64,000 bases of DNA, taken from Halomarina ordinaria (GTDB lineage Archaea; Halobacteriota; Halobacteria; Halobacteriales; Haloarculaceae). Of this stretch, positions 8,220 to 22,160 are shown one piece after another; position 1 is the first letter of the stretch; each line of letters starts with the position of its first letter. Below the pieces are notes generated by a model that worked only from the letters and a program-made list of their open reading frames with translations, was not told where the DNA came from and did not search any database. The stretch is taken from assembly GCF_030553305.1 (NCBI RefSeq), contig NZ_JARRAH010000001.1, positions 1,178,001 through 1,242,000 of the forward strand, read 5' to 3'. Made by a program: the position numbers and the translations under genes.

Positions 8220-9239
8220 ATGCAGTCACGAGCGATTCCTCCCGACAGCGACGTCGTCTACGTCGGAAACACGGAGACGACCGCGACGGTGCTGCGGTCG
8301 CTCCTCGAACGCGACGTACCGATAGCGGAGGTGGTGACGCTCGACCCCGAACGCGCCGAGCGCTTCGACGTCTCCAGTTACGAGGACCCGACGCCGGTCG
8401 CGGCCGCCCACGACATCCCGGTGTACTACCCCGAAGCGTTCGGGATGGACACGGCGGCCGACCGGACGCACTTCGGCGAGCTCGCCCCGGACCTCGTGCT
8501 CGTGCCGGGGTGGCAGCGGCTCCTCCCCGCCGAGGTCCTGGCGTCGGCCGAGCACGGAGCGCTCGGGGCGCACGGGAGCGCCTTCGGCCTCCCGAGAGGG
8601 CGGGGACGCTCGCCGCTGAACTGGTCGCTCGTCGAGGGGCTCGACCGGTTCGTCCTCTCGGTGTTCCGCCTCGACGACGGCCCCGACTCGGGCGCCGTCG
8701 TCGCCAGCCGGACCTTCGACGTCATCGACCACGACACCATCAGGACGCTCTACTACAAGGTCGCCATGTCCCTCCGGGAACTGTACCTCGACGCGCTCGG
8801 TCCCGTCCTCCGCGGCGAGGCCGAGTACGAGGAGCAGACGGGAGAGGCGACGTACTACCCCAAGCGCACCCCCGACGACGGCGCTATCCACTGGGGAGAC
8901 ACCACTCGCGACGTCCACAACCTCGTCCGTGCGGTGGGGCGGCCCTACCCGGGCGCGTTCACCGAACAGGACGGCCGGCGGGTCGACGTCTGGCGCGCCC
9001 AGCCGTTCTCGTCGCTCTTCGCCGTCGACGACCCGCCGGGGCGAATCGTCCAGACGTTCGAGGCGACCGGCGACTTCGTCGTGTCCACCGTCGACGGCAG
9101 CCTCCTCGTCACCGACTGGGAGGCCGACGGGTGGGTCCCCGAGGAGGGGGCGACGTTCGACTCGCCCGGCGACCACCGGCGGGTCGACCGGCCGGAACAC
9201 AGACACAACCTGACGGGGACGGGGGGCGACCGTGAGTGA
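8220..9239 (+). CDS. formyltransferase-like protein (Fmt/ArnA-N family) with altered catalytic Asn
   Basis: The 339-residue protein has the formyltransferase fold: an N-terminal Rossmann-like half, the loop GAHGSAFGLPRGRGRSPLNW, and an Fmt C-terminal-like domain. Family members use 10-formyltetrahydrofolate to formylate an amine through an Asn-His-Asp triad. His118 and Asp156 are present, but the Asn position (two residues before the His) is Gly116. Archaea do not formylate initiator tRNA, so a sugar-amine role was the first guess, in keeping with the locus; the missing Asn means activity is uncertain. ATG 8220 is preferred over the upstream TTG. The gene overlaps the next by 8 nt. Confidence 0.75.
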   Translation: MQSRAIPPDSDVVYVGNTETTATVLRSLLERDVPIAEVVTLDPERAERFDVSSYEDPTPVAAAHDIPVYYPEAFGMDTAADRTHFGELAPDLVLVPGWQRLLPAEVLASAEHGALGAHGSAFGLPRGRGRSPLNWSLVEGLDRFVLSVFRLDDGPDSGAVVASRTFDVIDHDTIRTLYYKVAMSLRELYLDALGPVLRGEAEYEEQTGEATYYPKRTPDDGAIHWGDTTRDVHNLVRAVGRPYPGAFTEQDGRRVDVWRAQPFSSLFAVDDPPGRIVQTFEATGDFVVSTVDGSLLVTDWEADGWVPEEGATFDSPGDHRRVDRPEHRHNLTGTGGDRE

Positions 9240-9933
9240 CGCGACCGACGGCCTGGCGTTCACGATGGAGGCGTACGCGGACCTCGTCACGTCGCTCCTC
9301 GACGACGGCTACCGGTTCACCGACTACGCGAACGCGGCCGAACGCACCGTCGTCATGCGCCACGACGTGGACCTCTCGGTCGAGCGCGCCCTCGCGATGG
9401 CCCGCCTGGAGGCCGACCTCGGCGTCACCTCGACGTACTTCTTCCTCGTGACGGCGCCGGTCTACAACCTCGTGCACCCGGAGACGCGCGCCGCCGTCGA
9501 GGAGATAGCCGCCCTCGGCTGCGACGTCGGATTGCACTTCGACACGCACCACTACTGGGACGACCGACCAGCCGAGGCGGAACTCGTCGAGCGGGTTCGC
9601 GCCGAGACCGAGAGCCTCGAACGCGTCGTCGGGACGTCCGTCGAAACCGTGTCGTTCCACGTCCCTCCCGAGTGGGTGCTGAACCGCGCGTTCGACTCGT
9701 TCGTCAACGCCTACGCCCCCCGGTACTTCGAGGAGCCGACCTACGTCTCCGACTCGAACCAGAAGTGGCGCGCCGGTCCGCCGTTCCCCGACGGCGTCCC
9801 CGAGCGCGTCCAGATACTCGTCCACCCCGGCCTCTGGCACGAGGACGACCGCCCGCTCGCGGAGGTCCTGCGGACCGTCGAGGAGCGGACCCACGACGGG
9901 GTCGCGCGCTTCATGGCGCCGCTCGGCGAGTGA
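9232..9933 (+). CDS. polysaccharide deacetylase-like (NodB homology) protein
   Basis: The 233-residue protein carries MRHDVD (residues 42-47), the motif 1 equivalent of NodB-type metal-dependent deacetylases with the catalytic base and metal Asp, and later GLHFDTHHYWD with candidate metal His residues. It lacks a signal peptide, so it probably acts on a cytosolic nucleotide- or lipid-linked sugar. It starts with a GTG inside the upstream formyltransferase-like gene (8-nt overlap), so the two products are made together, suggesting that one removes and the other adds an acyl group, or that they act in sequence on one amine. Substrate is unknown. Confidence 0.7.
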   Translation: MSDATDGLAFTMEAYADLVTSLLDDGYRFTDYANAAERTVVMRHDVDLSVERALAMARLEADLGVTSTYFFLVTAPVYNLVHPETRAAVEEIAALGCDVGLHFDTHHYWDDRPAEAELVERVRAETESLERVVGTSVETVSFHVPPEWVLNRAFDSFVNAYAPRYFEEPTYVSDSNQKWRAGPPFPDGVPERVQILVHPGLWHEDDRPLAEVLRTVEERTHDGVARFMAPLGE

Positions 9934-10011
9934 GTCCGCGAGTACGACGCACGGACACTCTCGCGAGCGAGAGGACACAACCGCTATGCCGTGACGTGTC
10001 GTTTCAGGGCC

Positions 10012-10794
10012 ATGAAACGGCGGACGCTCCTGTCGACGCTCGGCTCGGTCCCGGCGCTGGCGTGGTTGACGCTCGCGAGCGACGACGTCCCGATGACGGG
10101 CTTCAACCGACTCCGGGTGGGCGCGCCGCTCTCCGGCATCACGCCGAACTACTACGGCGCGTTGAACGTGCGCTCGCCGGACCCGGGCATCGCCATCCAG
10201 ACCGCGGCGGAGTCGACGTACGCGGGCATCTTCTGGTACAACAAATTAGGTGAACGGATGGTGCAACTCGTCACGGACGAACCGGACCAGGAGCTCTCGA
10301 TGTACGTGAAGGCCGACGCGAAGGGCAGCGGCAACACCCAGCCGAAGAAGGCGCTCGACGTCCAGTTCGGGACGGCCGACGCCTTCGTCGCCTGGAAGAA
10401 CTTCGAGTCGTTCCAGTTGACCGGCCAGAGCACCCCCGGCCGCGACGGGAGCATCTCGCTCCAGCTCCACGCGGGCAACGAGGACGCCTACACGCAGCTC
10501 AGTTTCTTCGACTCGACGGACACCCGCCAGTGGTCGCTCGAGGCCGACACGGGCGACGACGGCGTGTTACACCTCTGGGACCACGTCGCCGACGACGTGA
10601 CCGTCGCCTTCGCCCCCGACGGCGGGGGTATCGATGTCTCCGGGACCCCCGTCCTCGGGTTGCGCGAGATAACCGACCCGTCACCGGGCGACCTGCGCTC
10701 CCAGGAGTGGGCGTGGGACGCGACGGACGACCGCTGGCTGTACCGCGACAGCGGCGGGACCGTCCACTACTTCACGCCGGACGGCACGCTGTGA
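10012..10794 (+). CDS. Tat-exported protein of unknown function
   Basis: The protein is 260 residues when started at ATG 10012, giving a Tat-like leader: KRR, then a hydrophobic stretch TLLSTLGSVPALAWLTLAS. An earlier in-frame start at 9991 would bury the leader. The mature part is beta-rich and low in Cys, with many Gly, Asp and Thr; segments such as GALNVRSPDPGIAIQ and the C-terminal DRWLYRDSGGTVHYF resemble repeat strands of tail-spike or surface-binding proteins, but I cannot assign a family. It closes the plus-strand part of the glycan locus, so it may be a glycan-binding or glycosylated surface protein. Confidence 0.6.
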   Translation: MKRRTLLSTLGSVPALAWLTLASDDVPMTGFNRLRVGAPLSGITPNYYGALNVRSPDPGIAIQTAAESTYAGIFWYNKLGERMVQLVTDEPDQELSMYVKADAKGSGNTQPKKALDVQFGTADAFVAWKNFESFQLTGQSTPGRDGSISLQLHAGNEDAYTQLSFFDSTDTRQWSLEADTGDDGVLHLWDHVADDVTVAFAPDGGGIDVSGTPVLGLREITDPSPGDLRSQEWAWDATDDRWLYRDSGGTVHYFTPDGTL

Positions 10795-10829
10795 GGGCGG
10801 GACGAACGGCTCCGTCCTCGCGCTCACGG

Positions 10830-12320
10830 TCAGCGCGAGGAGATGACCTCCCGGACCGGGGGCGGAAGGAGGGACAGGAAGAGGGCGATGTCCTCGCCGT
10901 CGACCGCCCGCGTCTTGACGGCGACGATGGCGTGGACCACCGTCCCGACGAGCCCCGCGGTGAGGACTGTCGGGAGGGTCGGCGGGCCCGCCGTCACCAC
11001 GCCGAAGACGGCGAGCGCCGTCGCGAACACCGTCGTCGCGACGCGCGGGAACCGGAAGTCGGCCGCCGGGTCGACGCCGGACTTTCGACTGCTCCAGACG
11101 TGCAGACCGAGCATCGACCCGTAACTGACGCTCGTCGCCACGGCTGCGCCGTACATCCCGTAGCGGGGGATGAGCGCGAGGTTGAGCGCGAGGTTCAGCA
11201 CCGCCGCCACCGCCGTCGCGCCGACGAGCACGCGCAGGTGGCCGGTTCCCTGGACGACGCCGATGAGCGGCCGGGCGATGGCGAACCCGAGCGCGCCGGG
11301 GAGGAGCAACAGCGCTGGGCCGACCGCCGGCGCGTACGCGGCGCCGAAGTAGAGGGGGACGAGCACGTGCGCGGACGCGCCGACGACGAGTATCATGAGG
11401 CTCGTGAGGAGCGTGACGTACCGCGTCATCCGCGCCGTCAGGCGCTCGATGCGGCGGTGTTCCCCGCGGGAGGACATCCCCGAGGAGGAGTGGACGAGGA
11501 GGTTCTCCATCGCGATGGGAACGATCCAGAGGAATTCGGCGACGAGCAGCGCCGCCTTGTAGTAACCGGTCTCCAGGCTGCCGACGGTCGGGCGCAACAG
11601 GAGGACGTCGACGTGGATGAGCGTGTTGGCGAGCAGTAGATAGACGGCGGTCACCGTGTTGAACGAGAGGACCTCCCGACGGGGGAAGGAGGTCGGCGCG
11701 AGGGTGAGCGCGCTCCGGAGCGGGAGTTCCCGCGAGATGAACCACAGGGCGGCGACCAGCACGAGGGAGTAGGTGATGGTCTGACTCAACAGGACGCCGA
11801 CCACCCCCCACCCCCACTCCAGGAAGACGACCGCGAGGACGCCGAACAGGAACTTCTCGACGCTCGTGAGGGGTTCAGAGAGGTGTTCGTAGCCGAGGCC
11901 CATCAGCGTGCTCCGACCGACGGTGAAGAACTGCTGGACGACGACGATGCCCCCGAGCAGGTAGAGGTAGGGGACGAACCGCGCGGAGAGCACCGAGACG
12001 ACCAGTCCGCTCTCGACGGCGAGGACGACGGCGAGGACGACGGCGACGCTGGCGAGCACGGTGACGCGGACGTAGAAGCCGAAGACCGTCGCCTCCCACT
12101 CGACGGCCTCGCGGTCCTCCGAGACGAACTTCCGGACGCCGTCGAACAGGCTGTCGACGAACACGAGCGTCACCGCCGACAGCGAGAGCAGGAACGCGTA
12201 GTCGCCGTACTCGGCGCCCAGGTACCGGACGAGCAGGGGCGTGATGGCGATGTGGAGGCCGATGGTCGCGACCCGGGCGCCGAGGATGGAGACGAAGCCG
12301 CGAGCCAGCGAGGTGGCCAT
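10830..12320 (-). CDS. lipid-linked oligosaccharide flippase (Wzx/MATE-like polysaccharide exporter)
   Basis: The 496-residue protein has about 12-14 hydrophobic helices across its whole length and the N-terminal pattern of the polysaccharide biosynthesis flippase family (LLVRYLGAEYGDYAFLLS). These proteins move lipid-linked glycans from the cytosolic to the outer face of the membrane; haloarchaeal AglR belongs to this general group. It is the last gene of a minus-strand set (glycosyltransferase, GT-C-like protein, flippase) that meets the plus-strand sugar genes tail to tail. Confidence 0.85.
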   Translation of the reverse strand: MATSLARGFVSILGARVATIGLHIAITPLLVRYLGAEYGDYAFLLSLSAVTLVFVDSLFDGVRKFVSEDREAVEWEATVFGFYVRVTVLASVAVVLAVVLAVESGLVVSVLSARFVPYLYLLGGIVVVQQFFTVGRSTLMGLGYEHLSEPLTSVEKFLFGVLAVVFLEWGWGVVGVLLSQTITYSLVLVAALWFISRELPLRSALTLAPTSFPRREVLSFNTVTAVYLLLANTLIHVDVLLLRPTVGSLETGYYKAALLVAEFLWIVPIAMENLLVHSSSGMSSRGEHRRIERLTARMTRYVTLLTSLMILVVGASAHVLVPLYFGAAYAPAVGPALLLLPGALGFAIARPLIGVVQGTGHLRVLVGATAVAAVLNLALNLALIPRYGMYGAAVATSVSYGSMLGLHVWSSRKSGVDPAADFRFPRVATTVFATALAVFGVVTAGPPTLPTVLTAGLVGTVVHAIVAVKTRAVDGEDIALFLSLLPPPVREVISSR

Positions 12321-15848: not shown

Positions 15849-16166
15849 ATGTCCTATGATACCGTGTCACTATTCGACGTGCTCGGGAGCAAGCCGCGGT
15901 TGCGCATCATCCAAGAACTCTCCTCGGAGCCGCGGTACGTGACCGAACTGGCCGAACGAGTCGGGATGGACGGCAAGAGCGCCGTCCACCACCTCGACGT
16001 ACTGGAGGAGTCGGGCATCGTCGAGAGCTACCACGTCAGTCGCCGGAAGTACTACCGGCTCCAGCGGACGGTCGAACTGCGGGCGTCACCCCCGCCGGAA
16101 CGGTCGTTCTGCCTCCACACCGACGCCATCGAACACGCCGCGAGCGACGACACCCCCGCGGACTGA
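15849..16166 (+). CDS. ArsR-type winged-helix transcriptional regulator
   Basis: The 105-residue protein has a single winged HTH: the recognition region is about residues 25-60 (YVTELAERVGMDGKSAVHHLDVLEESGIV), followed by the wing ESYHVSRRKYY. A C-terminal tail has one Cys (FCLHTD) and may contact a ligand, although this is not shown. It resembles small haloarchaeal ArsR regulators. The target is unknown; neighbours are an amphi-Trp protein and the end of the glycan locus. Confidence 0.8.
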   Translation: MSYDTVSLFDVLGSKPRLRIIQELSSEPRYVTELAERVGMDGKSAVHHLDVLEESGIVESYHVSRRKYYRLQRTVELRASPPPERSFCLHTDAIEHAASDDTPAD

Positions 16167-16294
16167 CGGACACGCCCACCGACGTCCGCCGCGCGTCGCC
16201 CTCGAGGACGCCCCGTCGACCCGGTCCCGGATGCGAACGACATCCGTGTCATCTACTGACAGTGGTTATTAGTGTCGACGTCGTACGCCGGGCC

Positions 16295-16588
16295 ATGCCG
16301 GAACTGCCCAACGACAGGTCGAACCAGCAGCGCGTCGTGACCGACGGGTACTTCGAGCGGGAGGTCCGCCTCTCGCGGGAGCTGACCGCCACGTTCCTCC
16401 GGGAACTCGCCGCTCAGGTCGAAGACGGAAACGAACTCACCGTCTCCGGCGACGACTGGGAGATACCGTTCCGGTTCGACGAACCCATCGAGGTCGAGGT
16501 GGAGTTCATCGGCGAGCGAAAGCGCGAGCTGGAGATCGAACTGGAGTTCGAGTGGGCCGGGGAGGAGAGCGAACTCAGCGTCGAGTGA
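16295..16588 (+). CDS. amphi-Trp domain-containing protein
   Basis: The 97-residue protein fits the small amphi-Trp domain: an amphipathic beta-helix-beta unit (FEREVRLSRELTATFLRELAAQVEDG) followed by strands (ELTVSGDDWEIPF, IEVEVEF) and a terminal acidic strand ELEIELEFEW. The Trp that names the domain is present near residues 58 and 92. The function of this family is not established. ATG 16295 is chosen over an upstream in-frame start because the domain begins shortly after it. Confidence 0.7.
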   Translation: MPELPNDRSNQQRVVTDGYFEREVRLSRELTATFLRELAAQVEDGNELTVSGDDWEIPFRFDEPIEVEVEFIGERKRELEIELEFEWAGEESELSVE

Positions 16589-16650: not shown

Positions 16651-17919
16651 TCAGCCGTCGGCCTCCAGTCGGAGCGCGACCGCGAGTCGTTCCCACTCGT
16701 CGACGGTCTGCCAGCCCCACCCGCGCTCGCCCGTCGCCCGTTCGCGGGCGTGTTCGATACGCCAGCGCTCGTTCGCCACGTCGTCACCGCTCCGGTCGGC
16801 TACCCGACGGGCCGTCCGTTCGGGTCGCTGTTGCGCGAGCGTCGCCCCCTCGACCGTTCCCGTCAGGAACCGGCGTATCGTCCCGGGGGCGTCGCGGAGC
16901 CGCTCGGTGGTCGTCACGAGCGCCGGCCCCGGCACCGGGAAGTGGTCCGCCACCGACAGCGAGGCGACGTCGTGACCGGCGGTCGCCAGTTCGTGGACAT
17001 CGATGGGCATCCCGGTGGCGACGGCCGCGTCACCCGCGCCGAGCGCCGCCTGCTCCTCGCCGGAGACCTCGACCGTCTCGACGTCGTCGGCCACGCGCGA
17101 CTGCGCGAGGAACAGCCGCGCCAGCCGTCCCACCTCCGAGTCCGGGGGGACCGCGAGCCGTCGCCCACGCAACTGTTCGACGCTCGTGAACGGTTCGCCC
17201 AGCCGTTCCGTCGTCGTGTAGAGGACCGCCATCGACCGCTGGTGGAGCAGCGCGAGGGGGACGAGCGACCCGTCGGCACCCCGACAGACGCTCGCCGCCC
17301 CGACGACGGCCACGTCCGCGCGGCCGGCACGGAGTTCCGCCATCGCGGCGCCCGACCCGCGGGCCGCGTCGAGGGTGACCGCGACGTCGTGTGCCTCGTA
17401 GCAGCCGAAGTCGGCGGCCGCGATGAGCGGTGCGTGCAGGCCGTTCGGGACCCAGTTCAGCGCCACTCTGACGGTCGCCGGGTCGGCGTCCCCCGACGCG
17501 GCCGTCTCGGCGTCGTCGAGCCACCCGGGCGGGAGCGTCGCCCCGAAGTGGGTCGCCACCGCCTCGGCGCGTTCGAGGAGTCGGCGGCCGTGGCCGTCGC
17601 GGACCCGGGCCGCGAGCGAGTCGCGGTCGCCCGCCGCCCGCCACCCCTTCGGCGGCCGACCGCGCGTGTCGCTGGCGACGGTCGTGCTCGTCGCGAGCCC
17701 ACCCGACTCCAGCGTCGAGAGCGCCTCGACGGTCGTCCCCCGGCCCAGCCCGGTCCCGACGCGAACCGCGAGTCGGGTCGCCTCGTCCGGGTCGACCTCG
17801 TCGCTCTCACGGCGTTCCACGAGGTACGCGAGCACCCGGGCCGCGTCGCCGTCGAGCCCGGCGCGGAACTCCTCGTACCGGGCGTCGTCCGGCAGGACCG
17901 GATACGCGCGCCAGTGCAT
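16651..17919 (-). CDS. winged-helix protein fused to a THI5/NMT1-like substrate-binding domain
   Basis: The 422-residue protein has no signal peptide. Residues 1-105 resemble a winged HTH (RVLAYLVERRES, then VEALSTLESGGLATS and a basic RGRPPKGW). From about residue 148 it changes into the periplasmic-binding fold of the NMT1/THI5 group: VRVALNWVPNGLHAPLIAAADFG, then RAGRADVAVVGAASV and a hinge. In transporters such domains bind thiamine precursors, taurine or sulfonates outside the cell; here the domain is cytosolic and joined to DNA-binding sequence, so a one-component ligand sensor is inferred. It is divergent from an MFS transporter gene, its likely target. A TATA-like cattta at 17942-17948 lies about 25 nt upstream. 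Confidence 0.7.
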   Translation of the reverse strand: MHWRAYPVLPDDARYEEFRAGLDGDAARVLAYLVERRESDEVDPDEATRLAVRVGTGLGRGTTVEALSTLESGGLATSTTVASDTRGRPPKGWRAAGDRDSLAARVRDGHGRRLLERAEAVATHFGATLPPGWLDDAETAASGDADPATVRVALNWVPNGLHAPLIAAADFGCYEAHDVAVTLDAARGSGAAMAELRAGRADVAVVGAASVCRGADGSLVPLALLHQRSMAVLYTTTERLGEPFTSVEQLRGRRLAVPPDSEVGRLARLFLAQSRVADDVETVEVSGEEQAALGAGDAAVATGMPIDVHELATAGHDVASLSVADHFPVPGPALVTTTERLRDAPGTIRRFLTGTVEGATLAQQRPERTARRVADRSGDDVANERWRIEHARERATGERGWGWQTVDEWERLAVALRLEADG

Positions 17920-18166
17920 ACCCGAGGGTTCGCCGGTGTGCTAATAAATGACACGGCGGCGAAGGGTGCGCTCACCGCTCGACCGTGTGCGGACGGGCTG
18001 GAGGACACGTGGGAGGTGTCGATGGCACCCGGCCCGCGGAGAGCGGGTCGCCGAGAGCGGGTCGTCGCCGGCCCGAGGCGCCGTCAAAAAACGCCCGAAC
18101 AGATAGACGTTCAACACCGCCCTGACACAGACGAACAGAGATGGTATCGACAGGTGGCCGCTGCGC

Positions 18167-20358: not shown

Positions 20359-21096
20359 CTACTCCAGCCACCGGTCCGGGGTCGTGTCGTCGACGTAGCC
20401 GTGGAGGAGCGCCGATTCGGCCCGTCGGAGCCGATAGGAGAGCGTCGACCGGGGGATGCCGAGGTCGGCGGCGATGTCGTCGAGGGTCGTCTCGCGGGGC
20501 GGGTCGTAGTATCCCGCCGCGACGGCCGCCCGAAGCGCCCGCTCCTGCGGTTCCGAGAGCGCGGTCCCCGCGAGCGACTCCTGTCGCCAGCCGTCGGCGT
20601 CGCGGAGGTGTCCCATCCGGAACGAGAGCCCCTCGCGCAGCCGGGCGCTGAGGTCGTCGTAGAAGACGCCGATGCGGTCGTCGGAGCGCATCAGCAGTCG
20701 CCACCAGTGCGCCGACCCCCGGCGTCGGGTCTGGAAGATGACGCCCGACGGGAGGTGGGTGCCGGCGAGCGTGTGGACCGACTCGCAGCCCCGAATCGCG
20801 TCGAGGTGGGTGTAGAGGACGAGGCCGTTGGTCGAGCGTTCGAGCGTGTCGTGGAATCGGGCCGCACCGCACCGGGTCTCGGTGATGGCCTCCCCGCACG
20901 TGTCGTCGTCGAAGCGGACTTCCTCGATACGGCTGAGCGCCGCGGCCGGGCCGGAGAAGCGCTCGATGCGCCAGAACTGGTCGGCGGCGATGACGCCGTC
21001 GAGCGAGTGCGCGGTCAGCGACGGGTACGCCGCGAAGACGTCCATGATGGGGTCGGCTCCGGGGTCGTACTCGATGGCGAACGTCAACTCCCGCAT
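20359..21096 (-). CDS. bat-type (HTH-10) transcriptional regulator
   Basis: The 245-residue protein ends in the HTH-10 domain common in haloarchaeal bacterio-opsin activator relatives: ALRAAVAAGYYDPPRETTLDDIAADLGIPRSTLSYRLRRAE (split here: AAGYYDPPR, IAADLGIPRSTLSYRLR). The N-terminal 180 residues form a bat-associated sensor-like domain with several Cys and aromatic residues. It lies between the sulfurtransferase and the YeiH-type transporter, and probably regulates one or both. Confidence 0.8.
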   Translation of the reverse strand: MRELTFAIEYDPGADPIMDVFAAYPSLTAHSLDGVIAADQFWRIERFSGPAAALSRIEEVRFDDDTCGEAITETRCGAARFHDTLERSTNGLVLYTHLDAIRGCESVHTLAGTHLPSGVIFQTRRRGSAHWWRLLMRSDDRIGVFYDDLSARLREGLSFRMGHLRDADGWRQESLAGTALSEPQERALRAAVAAGYYDPPRETTLDDIAADLGIPRSTLSYRLRRAESALLHGYVDDTTPDRWLE

Positions 21097-21149: not shown

Positions 21150-22160
21150 TCAGAACAGCGCCTGGACGACGAGGAGCATCGTCGTCGCGACGAGGAGGAG
21201 GCCGGTGAGGACGGTCGCGACGGGTCGGTAGCCCGCCGTACGGAGGTCGTCGACGTGGATGTCGAGGCCGAGGCCGGCGAACGCGAACAGGAACGCCCAG
21301 TCGGAGGCGTTCGCCAGCCACGCCGTCTGCTGGTCGGAGAACAGGCCGACGTTGGCGAGGACCATCACGCCGACGAACCCGACGATGAACTTCGGGAACG
21401 TCTCCCAGAGGGCGCGCCACCCGGCGCGCGGTTCGTCGGTGGACGGCGCTCCGTCCGTGGCCCGCCCCCGGCGACGGGCGTAGTAGACCACGTAGACGAC
21501 CACCGCGAGGCCGATGAGCGAGTTCCGGGCGAGTTTCACCAGCACCGCCCACTGGCCGGCGGTCTCCGAGAACGCGAACCCCGCGGCCGACACGGGACCG
21601 GTGCTGAACATCGTCAGTCCCGCCCAGACACCGAAGACGACGTCTGAGAGGCCGAGCGCGTGCCCCACGAGGGGGTAGACGAACAGCGTCGTCGCGTCGA
21701 ACAGGAGGACGGTCGCCGCCGCGTACGCGATGTGCGTCTCGTCGGCCGAGATGCTCTCGGCGAGGGCGACGACGGCGGAGACGCCGCAGATGCCCGACCC
21801 CGCCGCGAGCAGCGACCCGATGTCCTCGTGAATCGAGAAGACGAACCGCGCGAGGAGTTCGACGACGAGCATCGTCGTCGCCACCGTCGCGACGACGAGC
21901 ACGAGGAGTCGCGGGCCGGCGGCGAACACCTGGTCGAGCGCGACGCTCGCGCCCATGACGACGATACCGACTTCGAGCCACAGGGTGTGCGTGGCGACGC
22001 CGCGCCGCGCCCACGCGGGAACGCCCCACGCGTTCCCGACGACGAGGCCGATGACGATGGCGACGATGAGGTAGTTCGCCCCCGCAACCGCCGCGACGAG
22101 TCGCGCCGCGAGGCCGATGGCGACCAGCACGAGCAGTCCGGGGACGAGTCGGCCGGCCAT
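21150..22160 (-). CDS. YeiH/UPF0324-type putative sulfate exporter
   Basis: The 336-residue membrane protein has about 10 helices and the UPF0324 (YeiH) hallmarks: LGYVIGN-like IVIGLVVGNAWG, the central AAGSGICGVSAVVAL, and the C-terminal LFAFAGLGLDIHVDDL. Members are thought to export sulfate or related anions, but direct proof is limited. Only 1 nt separates its ATG from the stop of a 43-residue membrane protein gene, so both form one transcript whose upstream region has a palindromic operator. Confidence 0.85.
   Translation of the reverse strand: MAGRLVPGLLVLVAIGLAARLVAAVAGANYLIVAIVIGLVVGNAWGVPAWARRGVATHTLWLEVGIVVMGASVALDQVFAAGPRLLVLVVATVATTMLVVELLARFVFSIHEDIGSLLAAGSGICGVSAVVALAESISADETHIAYAAATVLLFDATTLFVYPLVGHALGLSDVVFGVWAGLTMFSTGPVSAAGFAFSETAGQWAVLVKLARNSLIGLAVVVYVVYYARRRGRATDGAPSTDEPRAGWRALWETFPKFIVGFVGVMVLANVGLFSDQQTAWLANASDWAFLFAFAGLGLDIHVDDLRTAGYRPVATVLTGLLLVATTMLLVVQALF

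Follow-up and report, generated by a model that had tools for sequence, protein, structure and literature searches.

The window, the 64,000-nucleotide stretch of Halomarina ordinaria DNA analysed here, encodes a 422-amino-acid protein (FUS, P0001; 16651-17919, minus strand) in which a winged helix (wHTH) is fused to an NMT1-type substrate-binding domain; the best reading of this cytosolic protein is that of a one-component ligand sensor. In its relatives, the gene usually stands first in an importer operon and occurs together with a PQQ-type alcohol dehydrogenase; FUS is therefore probably a nutrient-sensing gene switch that has gone unrecognised. We consider it reasonably likely that FUS is a one-component regulator acting in the cytosol, and that it controls an NMT1-type importer with ties to a quinoprotein system.

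A winged helix is joined to an importer-type binding domain

The FUS reading frame is supported by the ORF list, Pfam matches, AF2 models and orthologues, across which the start codon is kept in the context M..R.FPVL. NMT1 (PF09084) matched residues 162-368 (4.4e-19; 69.7 bits against a cut-off of 20.5) and was detected in 38 of 38 orthologues. The N-terminus of FUS gave no HTH match in the Pfam scan at E<=1; 8 of the 38 orthologues matched MarR_2 (PF12802; best 7.7e-6), and a single family member matched MreA at 3e-5, under the cut-off. Structure prediction recovered a winged helix in this part. Full-length AF2 models built on eight orthologues reached a pLDDT of 86 and a pTM of 0.86, and residues 1-128 modelled alone reached a pLDDT of 94. 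The modelled elements are helices at residues 12-19, 24-38, 49-56 and 60-72, a wing at 76-80/91-95, whose GRP..W motif is invariant among the 38 orthologues, and a long C-terminal helix (99-124) that may serve dimerisation. This wHTH topology with a wing and a flanking helix was also found by Foldseek, in which the nearest solved folds were AbfR2/Lrs14, TFE-alpha and MarR proteins.

The binding domain folds like 4nmy (a thiamin-bound substrate-binding protein, SBP), 3ix1 (ThiY), Thi5, TauA, SsuA and PqqT, with Foldseek E-values of 1e-13 to 1e-9 against ThiY, SsuA, TauA and PqqT, whereas profile comparison placed ThiY and THI5, not PqqT, as the closest solved relatives by sequence. None of 62 fusion orthologues showed a Tat or lipobox signal, compared with a lipobox in 34 of 39 partner SBPs; annotation of the family as exported ABC substrate-binding proteins does not fit this result. 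The initial annotation had described a winged helix joined to a substrate-binding domain without a signal peptide, and both points hold, since both domains fold confidently and no orthologue carries an export signal. Its idea of a one-component ligand sensor is reasonable for a cytosolic protein with these two domains, the first of which would bind DNA.

Table 1 Features at and around the fusion gene in the window.
Feature	Position	Strand	Evidence or remark
ArsR-type wHTH gene, recurrent neighbour	15849..16166	+	NF033788/HTH_20
amphi-Trp domain gene (convergent; 62 nt beyond fusion stop)	16295..16588	+	TIGR04354 1.5e-15
Type-2 periplasmic-binding-protein domain (NMT1/THI5), residues 145-420	16660..17487	-	PF09084, Foldseek
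Winged-helix part, residues 12-124	17548..17886	-	AF2 pLDDT 94, Foldseek
Imperfect inverted repeat TTCGCCGGTGTG-N11-CACGGCGGCGAA straddling fusion TATA box	17929..17963		weak operator candidate
TATA-like box TTTATTA, ~23-30 nt before fusion ATG	17942..17948	-	read from sequence
Divergent MFS transporter gene, 404 aa	18167..19381	+	PF07690 2.2e-41

The fusion arose once, in haloarchaea

A single-protein query with FUS against genome contigs returned no relatives; the family was found by profile searches, which identified the fusion in 57 of 394 genomes of the order, with four candidates per genome taken into the genome-wide scoring. No further carriers were detected outside the order in a sample of 394 genomes of the phylum. 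In the phylogenetic tree, the fusions form one clade (support 94/95) that includes neither the SBPs nor TRI1-3, three cytosolic proteins of the NMT1 type. The sister of FUS is the protein of genome G056 (100/100), and two genomes placed in the window genome's own genus, G053 and G055, also bear the fusion. The fusion thus has a single origin within haloarchaea, where an importer-type binding domain was joined to a predicted DNA-binding domain. Its members are publicly named 'ABC transporter substrate-binding protein' or 'hypothetical protein', and a search of the accessible literature found no paper on the wHTH-NMT1 architecture. Because sequence models miss the winged helix, what is likely a regulator family has been hidden under a transporter name.

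The fusion gene usually heads an importer operon

Gene neighbourhoods were compared at 63 fusion loci. A same-strand ABC ATPase gene directly follows the fusion gene in 39 of them, the two overlapping by 4 nt in 36 of the 37 loci measured. In the commonest layout, fusion, ATPase and permease genes run in one direction and face a second unit of permease and lipobox SBP; amphi-Trp and ArsR genes, Na/Ca exchangers and a PQQ-type dehydrogenase are often near. The same fusion-ATPase-permease operon is present in two independently annotated records. The partner SBP belongs to the same fold class as the binding domain of the fusion and has the same nearest solved relatives. About 20 loci carry the fusion with neither ATPase nor SBP nearby, and about a third of the tested fusion genomes (21 of 58) yielded no full SBP orthologue.

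In the window, the fusion and amphi-Trp genes lie only 62 nt apart and the ABC block is missing between them; in ABC-bearing relatives, the amphi-Trp gene lies beyond the block. Searches of the window genome gave no match for the ABC permease and no SBP orthologue, the best SBP match being TRI1 with a score well below those of orthologues, and the genome appears to be without an NMT1-type ABC importer. Since the sister genome G056 has the ABC block, its loss is the simpler reading. The ArsR-type and amphi-Trp genes (15849-16588) are frequent companions of the fusion, lying within 12 kb of it in 36 and 35 of the 63 loci, respectively, more than half in each case.

The initial annotation saw the divergent MFS gene as the target of the fusion and suggested that both may share a ligand, for example a precursor of thiamine. 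The MFS gene is real (Table 1), it diverges from the fusion gene across 247 nt, and a replacement transporter would make sense in a genome that has apparently lost its ABC importer; the MFS protein may have taken over from it. A thiamine-like ligand is in keeping with the nearest solved binding domains named above (ThiY, the thiamin-bound SBP and Thi5). However, of the 63 loci only that of the window has an MFS gene as neighbour of the fusion, and in fusion-bearing sister genomes homologues of this MFS gene are elsewhere or missing; across the family they are abundant, though not near the fusion. Since it adjoins the fusion nowhere else, the proposed MFS link fails the check that the initial annotation itself had set, namely that relatives should show the link too, and the gene was rejected as a conserved partner. 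No thiamine-synthesis gene was noticed among the annotated neighbours of the fusion either, and genome context gives a thiamine precursor no support. We therefore regard it as unlikely that the fusion represses or activates the MFS gene in response to such a shared ligand. Beyond the MFS gene (20359-21096 and 21150-22160), an HVO_2928/HTH_10 regulator adjoins a PF03601 (Cons_hypoth698) membrane protein.

The close overlap with the ATPase gene, together with the fact that the fusion gene takes the place of the SBP gene in SBP-ATPase-permease operons, would also suit a cytosolic accessory of the ABC importer, such as a subunit for trans-inhibition or ligand relay, with the winged helix providing dimerisation or ATPase contact and not acting in transcription. 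This seems rather improbable, as the fusion is present in the loci described above that have no ATPase or SBP nearby and in the window genome with its lack of permease and SBP matches, and as the wing and recognition helix are intact, including the invariant GRP..W. That the fusion works as an enzyme of the THI5 type, extended by an N-terminal domain, is very improbable despite the fold match to Thi5, whose cysteine motif is CCCFC, since P0001 has isolated cysteines only, with no CCCFC-like cluster, and the 38 orthologues share no invariant cysteine. One-component regulators with a binding-protein-fold sensor are the best reading of the family.

The fusion co-occurs with a PQQ-type alcohol dehydrogenase

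A PQQ-type alcohol dehydrogenase (PQQ-ADH) was detected in 72 of 394 genomes, namely 54 of the 57 with the fusion and 18 of the 337 without it (Fisher p 7e-47 by genome, uncorrected for phylogeny). Counted by genus, it occurs in 21 of 22 genera with the fusion and 0 of 73 without it (p 4e-20, uncorrected for deeper phylogeny). The dehydrogenase gene lies within 12 kb of the fusion in 32 of 63 loci, and the window genome retains a dehydrogenase cluster at 2.70 Mb. The TIGR03075 match of the dehydrogenase, 7e-110, is below the cut-off of that model; most of the proteins contain a CC..NNRG motif, and some of the PQQ-ADH matches are distant (35-45%). The accessible literature, when searched, held nothing on haloarchaeal PQQ enzymes of this kind.

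In a simple motif test, none of 33 PQQ-type dehydrogenases had a signal peptide, and the preceding gene had a Tat-like start in 10 of 30 cases. Such an arrangement, seen at L118 (2961-4679) and in relatives, with the Tat-like preceding gene in some genomes only, would fit either hitchhiker export or cytosolic use of the signal-less enzyme. No PqqE scored over the cut-off in 25 genomes; related radical-SAM proteins were present, and no control passed the cut-off either. The search for PqqC was empty, as was its control, and it was left out of account.

Elsewhere in the window genome (L040, G000:C1:2695000-2714500; 8891-11690 and 11836-12210), the three consecutive signal-less NMT1-fold proteins TRI1-3 are encoded divergently from a cupin gene. 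The cluster adjoins aldehyde ferredoxin oxidoreductases and a PQQ-type dehydrogenase, and this layout recurs in many haloarchaea. TRI1-3 perhaps function in cofactor handling.

Promoter and operator candidates

A TATA box is similarly placed in most fusion orthologues as in the window (Table 1), which fits a short-leader or leaderless promoter. The inverted repeat around the window TATA box was equalled in 10 of 2000 TATA-keeping shuffles, and an equally good repeat occurred somewhere in about 25% of shuffled regions; conservation of this repeat was not seen. When a conserved operator was sought in orthologous fusion promoters, the TATA box alone stood out clearly, palindromic models being modestly above shuffles and at best marginal.

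A 25-nt element, ATAAACnTTnnnCCGAATnATTTAT, trained on nine SBP promoters, also picked the cupin and TRI3 promoters among 1297 genes. In the window genome's own cupin/TRI3 cluster it scored 19.3 and 18.4 bits, against a shuffled 99.9th percentile of 11. A conserved palindromic element (such as TAAAACGTTTCTAGGAAACGTTTAT) lies beside the TATA boxes at SBP and divergent TRI3/cupin promoters, with occurrences at the SBP promoters of L117, L118, L120 and others, in the TRI3/cupin spacer of L040, and at L168, L177-L200 and L202. The SBP/cupin/TRI element, the one strong shared operator found, is kept in seven genomes (L168, L177-L182) confirmed to be without the fusion. In another group, SBP promoters lack it whether or not the genome has the fusion, and the fusion-MFS spacer does not contain it either. 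The element was dropped as a candidate site of the fusion on account of the seven fusion-less genomes and the fusion-MFS spacer. As it is kept without the fusion and absent in other genomes of both kinds, it is probably the site of another factor.

A model for ligand-dependent control and its relation to known systems

We propose a model in which a MarR/Lrs14-like winged-helix dimer carries the type-2 binding-protein (NMT1) domain, and in which a small molecule imported by the NMT1-type ABC importer would close this cytosolic domain. Closure would alter DNA binding by the winged helix and so adjust transcription of the fusion's own fusion-ATPase-permease operon, and probably also of the facing permease-SBP unit. 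The ligand would come from the quinoprotein system and could be PQQ, a PQQ fragment or the substrate of the PQQ-type alcohol dehydrogenase. In the window genome, where the ABC block is gone and the fusion and the dehydrogenase cluster are kept, the ligand may enter by another route, for which the divergent MFS transporter is only a candidate.

LysR-type regulators combine a winged helix with a cytosolic type-2 periplasmic-binding-protein-like effector domain and are one-component, often autoregulated factors. The fusion has the same combination of a winged helix and a type-2 binding-protein-like domain in the cytosol, but neither HTH_1 nor LysR_substrate matches it at E<=1. Instead, it combines a MarR/Lrs14-like wHTH with a clear NMT1 domain of the importer type, an architecture found only in haloarchaea. 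It shares the NMT1-fold binding domain with ThiY, SsuA, TauA and PqqT, which are exported, whereas the fusion is cytosolic and has a putative DNA-binding domain. The fusion also follows the logic of archaeal HTH-ThiN (ThiR) and HTH-riboflavin-kinase regulators, in which a wHTH is coupled to a domain from a cofactor pathway, either ligand-binding or enzymatic (such regulators are cited in PMC8305020). It differs from ThiR in having NMT1 with no ThiN match in Pfam scans, and in its gene context.

The structures 9b1u, 9b1v and 9ooz of PqqT are among the fold matches of the fusion's binding domain, a type of likeness that Foldseek finds for other ligand classes too, and PqqT was not found by sequence from either the SBP or the fusion profiles. 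We know of no PQQ-sensing transcription factor. PqqT of Methylobacterium extorquens is a binding protein that takes PQQ with a Kd of 50 nM (PMC12124388); it is bacterial and periplasmic, whereas the fusion is haloarchaeal and cytosolic and matches it in fold only. PQQ is a reasonable guess at the ligand because of the PQQ-ADH link, the lack of PqqE over the cut-off and the binding of PQQ by the PqqT fold; as the ligand of the fusion it is plausible but unproven. A bolder and rather doubtful proposal is that the family senses PQQ: haloarchaea that do not use the known route of PQQ synthesis would import it by the NMT1-type ABC transporter, load it onto quinoproteins that are cytosolic, or folded and Tat-exported, and gauge internal PQQ with a cytosolic binding-protein relative fused to a winged helix.

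Likely regulators, an entire family of them, sit under the name 'ABC transporter substrate-binding protein'. If the regulatory reading of the fusion is right, it draws attention to a haloarchaeal quinoprotein system that has been little studied and for which no PqqE over the cut-off turned up in 25 genomes, and archaea have their own counterpart of the LysR logic, in which an importer's sensor domain now serves as a switch.
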